From the NCBI GenBank assembly GCA_001516055.1, contig LOEZ01000014.1, positions 1 through 34,591 of the forward strand: a DNA stretch of 34,591 nt, given 5' to 3'. The notes beneath the pieces were generated by a model that saw only the letters and a program-made list of their open reading frames with translations, was not told where the DNA came from and searched no databases. This DNA comes from Gracilibacter sp. BRH_c7a (GTDB lineage: Bacteria; Bacillota; Desulfitobacteriia; Desulfitobacteriales; Syntrophobotulaceae). The position numbers and the translations under genes are program-made. Of this stretch, positions 1-3,851 are shown piece after piece. How positions within the stretch are numbered: position 1 is the stretch's first letter; the number at the start of each line of letters is the position of its first letter.

Positions 1-263
<263 letters not shown>

Positions 264-269
264 TATGAC

Positions 270-317
270 GTCCATGGATGGACTAACGCCGCGGGTGCCA
301 GGACGGCACGGAGCGGC
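270..317 (+). other. GC-rich double hairpin after the 23S gene
   Basis: Two hairpins follow the mature 23S end. The first has arms 270-274 and 279-283 (GTCCA/TGGAC). The second has an outer stem 288-292/313-317 (GCCGC/GCGGC) and an inner stem 295-299/305-309 (GTGCC/GGCAC). The first contains CCATGGATG, a motif that recurs in the structured repeats at 440-476 and 1955-1988. It could be an rRNA processing signal or a degenerate member of that repeat family. The structure is seen; the role is inferred. Confidence 0.5.
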
Positions 318-328
318 CCAAGTAACCA

Positions 329-359
329 AAAGGAGTACATGAATCGCATGTACTCCTTT
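329..359 (+). terminator. Terminator of the rRNA operon
   Basis: A perfect 13-bp stem (329-341 with 347-359, GGAGTACATG core) closes a five-base loop, AATCG. The 3' arm ends in TTT followed by ACTATATT, so the T tract is short but the stem is strong. It ends the rRNA transcript with no 5S gene before it. Confidence 0.8.
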
Positions 360-394
360 ACTATATTAATACGACTTACCTTCCGGTGCATGCA

Positions 395-487
395 TTAAAG
401 TCGTTGCGACGGAACACGATGTTCCTAGTGTCGTGCCTATCATGGATGGCATAAGGCACGACCGACGCCATGGATGACCAACTTTAA
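395..487 (+). repeat. Structured repeat element, copy 1
   Basis: This roughly 93-nt segment can fold as a multi-branched structure. The outer stem is TTAAAGT 395-401 with ACTTTAA 481-487. One hairpin is GGAACA/TGTTCC (411-416/420-425), and a 9-bp hairpin is GTCGTGCCT/AGGCACGAC (430-438/454-462). The part at 444-476 recurs almost exactly at 1955-1988 (one substitution, one extra base), on the other side of the chemoreceptor gene. With the hairpins at 270-317 it occupies the gene-free stretch 264-592. It may be a dispersed REP-like element or a structured RNA; no coding potential is visible. Confidence 0.55.
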
Positions 488-592
488 CGAAGATAAATAT
501 ATTAAAATTCCTTTCAAAAACTGTTACAATAAAAAGTAAATAGTCACGATAGTTCTAATTGAATTTTACATAGATAGAGAGGAGTTGCATAA

Positions 593-1882
593 ATGGAGAA
601 AGTAAAAAAGTACCGATTTGGCCTTAGAAAGAAGATGGTCTTACTTATTAGTCTATTAGCAATTATGACTTATTCTACAAGCGGATTTTTTATTTATTAT
701 ATTCGACCTAATTTTGCCCCAAATATTGATGAAGCCTTGTTCACTATAGGTACTTTAGCTTTGGGTGTTATCTGGTCTGGCATACTTGCATTTTTTATGG
801 CTAGTTTTATTATTAAGCCTTTGTTAAAACTTGAGACGGCAGTTATACGAGCCTCTGAAGGGGACATTAGTTCAAATGTTGAGGTATCAAAATCTGATGA
901 CGAAATTCGTTCATTAGGTATAGCCTTTGATAAGATGTTCTTAAACTTTCGAGAAATAGTACAGAGTATTGATGAGAACTGTATAAAAACAAATGATAAT
1001 GTAACTACTATTTTCAAGGCTTCTTCAACAGCATCACAACAAGCCAATTCAATGTTTCAGACTATGACTGAGATTTCTGCAGGTGCAGAAAAATCTGCCC
1101 TATCGATTCAATCTACGGCTGAAGCAGTAGAAGATGTAAGTCGCATTGCCATGGAAGTCCAGAGTCATGCTAAGTATTCCGAAGAAATTTCTGTGGAAAT
1201 GGTTGGACAGCTTACAGAGAGTAAGAAAGTCATTCACTCCTTAGTTGATGGAATTCAAGAACTTGCTAAAGGAAACGAGGCATCACTTGGAGTTGTCCAA
1301 AGTTTTGAGGATAAGGCTAAGCAGATTGGACAAATTATTCAACTAGTAGGTGATATAGGTGATCAGACTAATCTACTTGCATTGAATGCCTCTATCGAAG
1401 CTGCTCGCGCAGGTGAGCATGGAAAAGGCTTTGCTGTTGTAGCTGAAGAGGTACGTAAGCTTGCAGATCAAAGTGCCGAAGCGGTTCGAGGGATATCTAG
1501 TCTTCTTGAAAACATTCAGATGGAAGTGCAAAATGTTGTAAATCAGATTTCACTTCAAGTGGAAAGTGCCAATATGGAAGCCCAAAAAGGTACAATAACC
1601 AATGAGGTTATAGAGAAAATCTCAAAAACAATTCTTGGTGTAGCGGGAAGTGTTGAAAAGATTTCTAAACTCGTTGATCGACAAATGGAGAGTATTCACG
1701 AAACTTCACGACAATATCAAGATGTCGCTGCTATTGCTGAAGAAACATCTGCAGGGGCGTTTGAAGTATCTAGTGCTACGAAAGAACAAGCAGAAGTTAT
1801 TTATCAGGTGGAAGATTTGGCAAAGAACTTAAAAGAACGGGCCGAAAGCCTTACAAATACGATTTCCCGCTTTCGGTTATGA
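593..1882 (+). CDS. Methyl-accepting chemotaxis protein without a large extracellular domain
   Basis: This is a 429-residue chemoreceptor that would signal to a CheA/CheW complex at the inner face of the membrane. Two membrane segments (about 14-36 and 49-74) are joined by a loop of only about 12 residues, so there is no room for an external ligand-binding domain. A HAMP linker (about 71-124) follows, then a long helical MA signalling domain whose conserved hairpin tip is near 252-290 ([20 protein letters not shown]). No C-terminal CheR-tethering pentapeptide is visible. The ATG at 593 has GAGAGGAG at 577-584. A weak promoter (TTAAAA 502-507, TACAAT 525-530) lies upstream. It stands alone between two copies of a structured repeat. 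It may sense membrane state, cytoplasmic cues or partner receptors; that is inference. Family assignment is secure, ligand unknown. Confidence 0.95.
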   Translation: MEKVKKYRFGLRKKMVLLISLLAIMTYSTSGFFIYYIRPNFAPNIDEALFTIGTLALGVIWSGILAFFMASFIIKPLLKLETAVIRASEGDISSNVEVSKSDDEIRSLGIAFDKMFLNFREIVQSIDENCIKTNDNVTTIFKASSTASQQANSMFQTMTEISAGAEKSALSIQSTAEAVEDVSRIAMEVQSHAKYSEEISVEMVGQLTESKKVIHSLVDGIQELAKGNEASLGVVQSFEDKAKQIGQIIQLVGDIGDQTNLLALNASIEAARAGEHGKGFAVVAEEVRKLADQSAEAVRGISSLLENIQMEVQNVVNQISLQVESANMEAQKGTITNEVIEKISKTILGVAGSVEKISKLVDRQMESIHETSRQYQDVAAIAEETSAGAFEVSSATKEQAEVIYQVEDLAKNLKERAESLTNTISRFRL

Positions 1883-1893
1883 TTGAGGCTAGA

Positions 1894-2012
1894 CGGAACC
1901 TATGTTCCGAAGAAGGATTGAAAGGAGAAGCTTAAGACCCATCGAAGTTAAGAAGGATGACATAAGGCACGACCGACGGCCATGGATGCATCAACGCCTT
2001 GATGACCTTAAC
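1894..2012 (+). repeat. Structured repeat element, copy 2
   Basis: It begins 11 bases after the chemoreceptor stop codon. It contains a CGGAAC/GTTCCG hairpin (1894-1899/1904-1909), a possible outer stem GTTAAG 1947-1952 with CTTAAC 2007-2012, and a CATCAA/TTGATG hairpin (1989-1994/1999-2004). The 34-nt stretch 1955-1988 is nearly identical to 444-476 of copy 1. It fills much of the 348-nt gene-free stretch 1883-2230; the rest holds the promoter region of the next gene. No classical terminator follows the chemoreceptor, so this element may also serve as a transcript end. Confidence 0.55.
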
Positions 2013-2145
2013 CAGTGCCGTTATAAGCTAGGTTTTAATTGATATGTTTATAGTGCTGGTATATAATGGTAAACGTTAAGATAGATTTGAATTGACTCAA
2101 AAATTCAAAGGTTTCTGGGATGAGATTACTAAACTTTTTTATTCC

Positions 2146-2175
2146 TTGATAATGTATTCACAGAAATAATATATT
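2146..2175 (+). promoter_or_regulatory. Predicted promoter of the lipoprotein gene
   Basis: TTGATA at 2146-2151 and TATATT at 2170-2175 are separated by 18 bases, a plausible vegetative promoter about 50 nt upstream of the start codon at 2231. The direct repeats at 2148-2165 and 2181-2198 overlap its -35 box and its start region. Confidence 0.45.
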
Positions 2176-2198
2176 ATAGAGATAATATATTCACAGAA
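2148..2198 (+). repeat. Two 18-nt direct repeats in the lipoprotein promoter
   Basis: GATAATGTATTCACAGAA (2148-2165) and GATAATATATTCACAGAA (2181-2198) differ at one base and start exactly 33 nt apart, about three helical turns. Lying on the same face of the DNA across the predicted promoter, they look like a tandem operator for a DNA-binding regulator. The repeats are seen; the operator role is inferred. Confidence 0.6.
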
Positions 2199-2230
2199 TT
2201 TCTAGTGGGAAAAGAAAAGGAGAGGACTAG

Positions 2231-3682
2231 ATGAAAAAGTTTATTATTATTATTTTATTAATGACTGCTCTTGTAGTAGGTTGTTCCGCGGAAATTAAAG
2301 AAATTGATAGTGATTATGATAAAGAACTTGACCTGTTTAAAGATAAAGGGAACCAGACAATAATGGATATTCTTCCAAAAGAGTATTTGGAGTACATACC
2401 AAGTGAGGAAATAAGCAACGCTTCTGCGGAGATAAAAGACAACATTTGCACTATTTGGGTTACGTGGGAGACCGATAAATCTTTGGACGAAGTTGCTTCT
2501 ATGGTAAGTAATAAACTGGGGTACGAGTTGGAACTTGATGAAGGTAAATGGAAAGGAAATGCACCACAAGGGACATCTTTATCAAATGTTACCCTAAATA
2601 CATCCAATTCTTTAAAAGGTCTTCAAGTCTCTTACATGATAGATGTTAACCAGACAACTGAGAACCGAACATTATTGACTGAAAGTTTTCCTTTGGCTTG
2701 TTTTGATATACTGCCAGATAGTGTACAACAAGAAAATGCATTCAGAAAAGTTGAATACGGTAGTGATAATTGGGTATTTACATTGACATGGACTTACGAG
2801 CAGTCTGAGGGTCAAAAACTTGCTGATGAGCTTTTAAACATGTATGCAAAGATGGATAACTACTCCCAAAAGAAGATAGACAATGGCGATGAAGTTAGCT
2901 TTAACATTAATAACAAAGATACTATGTCTATACAACACATTTCAGAAGAAGATAAATCTATCATAAAGACAGCCTATACTTATAAGATACCAGGCCATTT
3001 GGAAAGTACATCAATGAAAAGTCTTCTTGATGATCCAACTAAATCACTGTTAGGAAACTATCTTGAAGACTATCAAAAAATTCTAGGGGAAACATTCGAA
3101 GGATTAACCTTATCGTTTTATCCAGAAGAAAAGATTCTGGCCTATGAAATGACGGTTGCCGAATCCGAAAATGTTCAAGAAATTGTTAGAAAAGCAGAAA
3201 GCATACTGAAAGGTGAATTTGCTTTAAATAATAAAGGACAGTATCGATTTAATTCTGAAAAGATTTCGTACACTATTAAACCCGGAAATGGCCTTATCGG
3301 ATTGATAATAGAAGAAGAGGTGGATGCAAGTTTTATTCATCCCTATATTCATGATGTGTATCCTGTTGAATATCAGCCGGAAATGCCTCCTGCACTTCGA
3401 GAAACCCCCTTTAGTATGGAAACCCAATATCACAATGATAAAGAGACGGATTATATTGTCCTAACAAAAACATGGAGGTTTAAAGAGGAATCTCAGAGCA
3501 AAGAAGTATGGGGAGAATTGGATAATAAACTTCAGGACCTCCATGGTTATAATGCCTATACCAACCAAGAGACAGATACTATAAACTGCACTATCAAGGA
3601 GTATGGCTATGAATGCAATTTATTTAAAAAAGGAGATCATTGGATAATTTCAACTGCATTTCGTTATCAAATTAACAATTAG
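2231..3682 (+). CDS. Lipoprotein of unknown function with four degenerate modules
   Basis: This is a 483-residue protein I do not recognise. Its N-terminus (MKKFIIIILLMTALVVGCSA) is a typical lipoprotein signal with the lipidated cysteine at position 18, so it should be anchored to the outer face of the membrane. The mature part looks like about four degenerate modules of 100-125 residues. Each has a beta-strand-like Trp/aromatic segment near residues 74, 180, 302 and 407, followed by a helical stretch and a Tyr/Asn-rich end. No catalytic motif is apparent. The ATG at 2231 follows AAAGGAGAGG at 2216-2225. The gene is monocistronic, with its own terminator and a repeat-bearing promoter. A binding, scaffold or sensing role outside the cell is possible but unproven. 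Confidence 0.85.
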   Translation: MKKFIIIILLMTALVVGCSAEIKEIDSDYDKELDLFKDKGNQTIMDILPKEYLEYIPSEEISNASAEIKDNICTIWVTWETDKSLDEVASMVSNKLGYELELDEGKWKGNAPQGTSLSNVTLNTSNSLKGLQVSYMIDVNQTTENRTLLTESFPLACFDILPDSVQQENAFRKVEYGSDNWVFTLTWTYEQSEGQKLADELLNMYAKMDNYSQKKIDNGDEVSFNINNKDTMSIQHISEEDKSIIKTAYTYKIPGHLESTSMKSLLDDPTKSLLGNYLEDYQKILGETFEGLTLSFYPEEKILAYEMTVAESENVQEIVRKAESILKGEFALNNKGQYRFNSEKISYTIKPGNGLIGLIIEEEVDASFIHPYIHDVYPVEYQPEMPPALRETPFSMETQYHNDKETDYIVLTKTWRFKEESQSKEVWGELDNKLQDLHGYNAYTNQETDTINCTIKEYGYECNLFKKGDHWIISTAFRYQINN

Positions 3683-3694
3683 TATTGTAGAGTG

Positions 3695-3726
3695 AAACTA
3701 CTTCGAAAGAGGTAGTTTTTTTTTAT
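3695..3726 (+). terminator. Terminator after the lipoprotein gene
   Basis: A 9-bp stem with one G-U pair (AAACTACTT 3695-3703 with AGGTAGTTT 3710-3718) closes the loop CGAAAG and runs into a ten-base T tract at 3716-3725. Confidence 0.85.
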
Positions 3727-3851
3727 TTCCAAATGCTCGAGTGCTTGGATGCGTGAAGACTTTGAATACCTTTACGGGATGGCAAAGAACACTTTTAAAT
3801 TTCCTGTTTTCATGTTATAAAAGAAAGCAAGTAGTTGTATGGAGGAAAAAA

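Follow-up and report, generated by a model that had tools for sequence, protein, structure and literature searches.

The DNA analysed here, in the following called the window, has a length of 34,591 nt and represents the whole contig C14 of the 4.1-Mb draft genome of Gracilibacter sp. BRH_c7a, a member of the Clostridia; the draft comprises 98 contigs and is 95.8% complete. The features discussed are listed in Table 1. The palindrome downstream of the 23S rRNA gene is followed by a short T run and is probably, judging from its sequence, the terminator of the rRNA operon; a simple terminator scan of the window did not flag it. Within the 5S-related pieces that follow, AAAGTCGTTGC is approximately a direct copy of the 5S 3′ end, as compared with the 5S of contig C34 and of the genus-mate G001. 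A promoter scan of the window gave matches near 474-530 and 2039-2067 which barely exceed those in shuffled sequences, and a search for tRNA and tmRNA found none. Plasmid or phage origin was rejected, with zero matches in plasmid and phage collections.

Table 1. Features of the window (G001, genome of a genus-mate; C34, another contig of the same draft genome)
Feature	Position	Strand	Basis and remarks
23S rRNA 3′ end	1-265	+	RF02541 match; contig begins inside 23S
R1 unit	268-319	+	Covariance model R1, 51.8 bits, E 1.1e-10; alignment with G001 ortholog
Palindrome AAAGGAGTACATG-AATCG-CATGTACTCCTTT	329-359	+	Sequence; identical in G001 after 5S
5S-related pieces	371-407	+	ACGACTTACCTTCC is the reverse complement of the 5S 3′ end; leads into copy 1 module
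Outer stem around copy 1	395-487	+	395-401/481-487, 7 pairs; in centroid structure
Copy 1 module, R1-like	409-464	+	GGAAC-ACGAT-GTTCC and GTCGTGCC[TATC ATGGAT GGCA]..GGCACGAC; no GGA in first loop
Chemoreceptor gene	593-1882	+	HAMP and MCPsignal (Pfam); 89% nucleotide identity to G001 ortholog
Segment absent from G001	1884-3836	+	Synteny break in blastn; positions 1883 and 3837 separated by 14 nt in G001
Copy 2	1885-2030	+	Full length, diverged from the related C34 element; begins directly after chemoreceptor stop codon

Two segments, 444-476 (GGATGGCATAAGGCACGACCGACGCCATGGATG) and 1955-1988 (GGATGACATAAGGCACGACCGACGGCCATGGATG), had originally been predicted to be nearly identical structured repeats flanking a chemoreceptor next to the rRNA operon. 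Direct reading confirmed a single substitution and a single insertion between them, and all hairpins proposed were found: in copy 1 the outer stem (395-401 TTAAAGT, 481-487 ACTTTAA), the inner hairpin 411-425 (GGAAC-ACGAT-GTTCC) and the hairpin 430-462, in which GTCGTGCC (430-437) pairs with GGCACGAC (455-462); in copy 2 the hairpins 1894-1909 (CGGAAC-CTAT-GTTCCG) and 1989-2004 (CATCAA-CGCC-TTGATG). Likewise, the motif CCATGGATG is present at 272-280, 468-476 and 1980-1988 and TCATGGATG at 440-448, and, as had been stated, the segments are not accounted for by genes; no Rfam family lies there either. The position on both sides of a chemoreceptor is real but incidental, the copies trailing the rRNA operon and the chemoreceptor stop codon. 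Chance is no explanation for the two segments, because the 20-mer GGCATAAGGCACGACCGACG (up to three mismatches) has four matches in the 4.1-Mb genome, on one strand only, and none in the controls. Copy 2 consists of the GGAAC hairpin, the core 1955-1988, CATCAACGCCTTGATG and AACCAGTGCCG, and shares 87% identity with the C34 element over 1955-2020. As single RNAs, the window copies have moderate folding z-scores against shuffles (-2.45, -1.70 and -1.30); the full copy on C34 has -3.90.

The best-conserved unit of the family is R1, with a length of about 52 nt and located in the window at 268-319. The R1 model, built from an alignment of 43 copies, comprises a first hairpin of 4 pairs with an ANGGAN loop, a 4-nt linker, and a second hairpin composed of a 5-pair stem, a GG/AGGA-type purine internal loop, 4 further pairs and a second ANGGAN loop; both loops are A-N-GGA-N and closed by C-G. 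The unit in the window shows the hairpin GTCC-ATGGAT-GGAC and then GCCGC[GGGTGCC-AGGAC-GGCAC]..GCGGC. The segments 444-476 and 1955-1988 belong to a related, less typical module, whose first hairpin is degenerate or different; the copy 1 module scores 14.2 bits with the model, and intact versions on contigs C34 and C86 score 23.7. The original prediction was correct concerning the repeats but missed the CsrA-type A-N-GGA-N loops and the main unit.

A search of the genome with 395-490 detected further copies, mostly at contig ends beside rRNA (C34, C86 and C7). The order on C34 is 23S, 5S, the palindromic terminator, a multi-hairpin element of about 150 nt and a second terminator-like hairpin. 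The 3′ half of this element (GTGCCGCnnTGCCATGGATGGCAAGGAGCGGC) is itself dispersed and occurs in 11 of 25 genomes of the family, with zero matches for the reversed pattern. A 31-nt core of the C34 element with few free positions is found exactly in Desulfosporosinus, other Peptococcaceae and Syntrophomonadaceae as well as in Ferrimonas, Psychrobium and other Gammaproteobacteria; some of the gammaproteobacterial carriers are marine. Some carriers are MAGs, but the named strains Ferrimonas marina DSM 16917 and Desulfosporosinus HMP52 are among them too. At E<=1e-4, the model search detected 21 R1 copies in the genome of the window, 24 to 64 in six relatives (G001 24, G004 36, G005 28, G008 62, G010 64 and G330 24) and 16, 3, 13 and 15 in four gammaproteobacterial genomes; among 398 genomes sampled from the phylum, 26 carry R1 at E<=0.01. 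The suggestion of a dispersed family is borne out by these numbers, which exceed the two copies seen at first and extend to relatives. Many copies are contig-internal and located in complete genomes, which rules out mere assembly repeats at contig ends. A search against Rfam 15 at gathering and permissive thresholds returned no family match for R1.

Structured RNA, a further option named at the outset, gained support from the covariance model, with compensatory changes in every helix. The R1 alignment contains 104 matches, 85 of them distinct, with 96.5% of cells paired, a percentage inflated by the fitting of the 85-sequence alignment to the R1 model. Changes on both sides were found in 10 of 13 pairs and all three stems covary; cells changed on both sides number 148 in the 85 distinct sequences versus a shuffled mean of 34.7. 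The covariation score is 0.412 versus 0.128 for shuffled alignments and at most 0.08 for slid controls, no shuffle attaining the real value, and the first-round MAFFT alignment follows the same trend (0.170 versus 0.098). Stem variants such as GCCGC/GCGGC, GTCGC/GCGAC, GTCTC/GAGAC and GCAGC/GCTGC are visible by eye. An excess of G-U over A-C in the stems, considered as a possible proof of an RNA, is too modest for that purpose (18 versus 9).

Complete units were detected in G004 and G005, two genomes of one genus (loci L148-L179), and are mostly about 155-180 nt long. Between copies, the mean identity is 55% in the closing arms and 92% in the core; the arm sequences are unrelated, yet they pair within each copy, which is unusual among repeat families. 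In addition, 19 of 27 copies from this genus possess a third downstream ANGGAN hairpin with loops such as AAGGAT, ACGGAG, ATGGAT and AGGGAG. Taken together, the structure and the dispersal of the family are shown.

The loops resemble known CsrA sites. CsrA/RsmA recognizes an ANGGAN loop (PMC3791407), the hairpins selected for CsrA by SELEX have six-base loops and mostly not more than 4 contiguous pairs, and CsrB carries repeated CAGGA(U/A/C)G (PMC7652899). Across the 85 distinct R1 copies, the A, G, G and A of the loops are nearly invariant and the second and sixth positions are free, giving ACGGAT, ATGGAT, AAGGAT, AGGGAT, ATGGAC and others in loop 1 and CATGGAT, CAAGGAT, CATGGAC, CATGGAG and others in loop 2. 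The R1 hairpins thus have the form of a CsrA site, with GGA in a six-base ANGGAN loop, C-G closure and a short stem. Five-base loops (AGGAT in gammaproteobacterial copies, AGGAC near window 300-304) match the CsrB form.

A csrA gene is present in 24 of the 26 genomes with R1 at E<=0.01 in the phylum sample; the two carriers without it, G258 and G410, both rank within the three weakest R1 matches. Restricted to carriers at E<1e-3, the proportion is 23 of 23 versus 262 of 375 other genomes (70%; Fisher p 3.5e-4), in a test which ignores relatedness, with about 10 families contributing and csrA being common anyway. No csrA was found in G001, which is 84% complete and has 24 R1 copies. The genome of the window encodes an intact CsrA of 85 aa with L4 and R44 present; by resemblance of the genes, csrA directly follows a fliW-like gene and lies near a flagellin-type gene fragment. 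The chances that CsrA binding is the conserved function of the element appear evenly balanced.

Several known systems invite comparison. TwoAYGGAY RNA (RF01731; Weinberg 2010, PMC2864571) also has two adjacent hairpins with AYGGAY loops, to which the 85 distinct R1 copies with stems supported by covariation correspond; occurrence in Clostridia plus Gammaproteobacteria is a further similarity. An enclosing outer stem may be another: it is seen with covariation in the complete units of G004 and G005, but comprises only 7 pairs at window 395-401/481-487. R1 differs from TwoAYGGAY by the purine internal loop of hairpin 2, by a third GGA hairpin in many units, by tens of copies per genome and by tandem arrays. 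The RF01731 threshold of 43 bits was not reached in the window, on C34, at loci L046 and L068 or in the complete units L148, L156 and L171, even at E<=1, and two R1 copies gave sub-threshold scores of 19-20 bits. A true TwoAYGGAY (47.1 bits) is located in the same genome as the window at C31:100-257 (L110), at a contig end and within nested inverted repeats. A role of TwoAYGGAY as CsrA sponge has been proposed as a hypothesis, and together with Bacillaceae-1 it forms the only published RNA candidates found for CsrA titration in Firmicutes, described there as untested (PMC4333381). By analogy, R1 might work like TwoAYGGAY. The sRNAs CsrB/CsrC and RsmX/Y/Z share with R1 several GGA loops on short stems and the pairing of sites suited to the CsrA dimer; they are encoded by one or few unlinked genes in Gammaproteobacteria, whereas R1 is dispersed, short and mostly clostridial.

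In the explanation which we prefer, both segments belong to a dispersed and modular structured element, here linked to rRNA, and we give about an even chance to CsrA as its binding partner. The basic unit R1 offers, in its hairpin pair with short stems, the form recognized by CsrA/RsmA; in complete units a closing stem is added, and the number of such loops may reach three. Putative contexts of transcription are the rRNA trailer, gene 3′ ends, intercistronic gaps and read-through past terminators, and each transcribed copy might display paired sites for both faces of the CsrA dimer, acting as CsrA decoy or as local cis site. Transcription of R1, CsrA binding and CsrA titration are steps which we infer. 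Loop consensus, pairing of sites, three-loop units and the association with csrA favour a CsrA-binding RNA. An extension to a genome-wide, self-spreading set of decoys, with tens of hairpin-pair modules per genome, some of them in rRNA operon trailers, and with free CsrA set by rRNA transcription and gene-end read-through, seems rather unlikely. If true, such a set would apparently be the first RNA antagonist of CsrA outside the Gammaproteobacteria in the literature, and a mobile repeat acting as regulator-binding RNA. The question at stake is whether an RNA, besides the protein FliW, titrates CsrA in Firmicutes. Here, R1 is a second candidate besides the TwoAYGGAY/Bacillaceae-1 type, far more abundant and with strong covariation and a sharp loop consensus; its spread via intergenic sites and between phyla would show regulator-binding RNA modules multiplying like repeats.

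The dispersal, the polymorphism and the weak strand bias of R1 speak for a selfish DNA repeat of the REP or MITE type, which we regard as possible though doubtful. Its hairpins would act as DNA or transposition substrate without a cellular role, a transposase would spread the copies in trans, and the GGA loops would be marks for that enzyme. REP, BIME and REPIN elements are likewise short intergenic palindromes with many copies, tandem arrangement and variability between relatives, but R1 has a conserved loop, variable stems and no obligatory Y1 transposase. A copy number that is high and varies, tandem duplication, presence and absence, intergenic placement and few divergent-promoter sites (three copies in divergent gaps according to a simple ORF caller) are all in line with such a repeat, as are the Y1 transposases, which were found in 7 of the 11 genomes examined, that of the window among them. 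However, the complete G004 has 36 copies and no Y1 (PF01797) match, and a RAYT as obligatory mover was rejected for this reason. Furthermore, the terminal arms lack sequence conservation, which would be unexpected for the inverted repeats of a MITE, the loop positions that vary are those which CsrA tolerates, and a 31-nt core is shared across phyla. The earlier idea of a non-autonomous mobile element holds in part: one presence/absence site and changes of tandem number agree with it, but a transposase signature and conservation of the closing-stem sequence are lacking. A strong sense-strand bias was sought and is weak at best, with 20 sense versus 14 antisense copies between same-direction genes (simple ORF caller), which would be odd if every copy must be transcribed. 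CsrA-binding RNA and selfish repeat are compatible in an element that spreads and is, in its RNA form, subject to structural selection, and the best reading of R1 is a spreading structured RNA with paired CsrA-type sites.

Regarding placement, 21 of 106 non-redundant R1 copies start immediately downstream of an intrinsic terminator, or about 16 when false stems within larger units are left out. The rate for random positions is 1.1%, and on the opposite side of the copies a terminator is present in 3 of 106; six gammaproteobacterial copies sit behind unrelated terminators. These observations speak for a retro-inserted hairpin element which, like group IIC introns, targets intrinsic terminators, its RNA being inserted after the T-tract. 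We consider this very unlikely: the preference is shared by a minority of the copies, most lying elsewhere, the elements of about 50-155 nt have no recognized intron domains, and some carriers lack a maturase domain. A group II maturase as obligatory mover was rejected, with no PF08388 match in G005 (28 copies) or G001 (24). At loci L157, L162 and L169, copies start at the stop codon and end just before the ribosome-binding site. A cis-acting processing or stability trailer of rRNA or mRNA independent of CsrA, with hairpins protecting 3′ ends or serving as RNase III sites, would suit copies following rRNA, terminators and stop codons but leaves the A-N-GGA-N consensus in all hairpins and the antisense and promoter-side copies unaccounted for, and is the least credible proposal.

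Comparison with G001 illustrates the turnover of the units. The palindrome and the chemoreceptor gene are shared at the orthologous rRNA flank (89% identity), and at the position of copy 1 only a small hairpin (AGTCCATAGATGGAC) is present, about 56 nt being absent. As the module is missing at this orthologous flank, units come and go; the empty site has no clear target-site duplication. Behind the chemoreceptor gene, G001 proceeds straight to the next gene, and the 1.95 kb absent there (1884-3836) contain copy 2, a lipoprotein-like ORF (2231-3682, 483 aa), an orphan with no match in a Pfam search, and a terminator (3694-3719). Just past this terminator, GGATGCGTGAAG..CTTTACGGGATGG (3747-3783) resembles the hairpin modules of the family, so that repeat pieces may bound the segment on both sides. 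Sister genomes differ in tandem number, one versus two units; greater conservation of the element than of its flanks was not seen in them, the copies changing as fast or faster and in a concert-like manner. Gain, loss and duplication of R1 copies in units of about 50 nt is the best explanation.

In the window, an R1 unit also occupies the place taken in G001 by the 23S-5S spacer and the 5S gene. At 266-330, the rRNA operon seemingly lacks 5S, with R1 and the terminator following 23S at once, in contrast to G001 and C34, where spacer and 5S follow. Since a collapsed repeat forms the start of the contig, this arrangement may be a misassembly. C34 (L013, 690-915) harbors a second, broken 5S split by an insert of about 130 nt with two similar GGCCGAAAC..GTTTCG hairpins, and a related copy with one hairpin is located on C56. 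On C86 (L014, 118-200), the end of an R1 directly adjoins the final 32 nt of 5S, and a new module start follows; the array carries the 5S 3′ end along.
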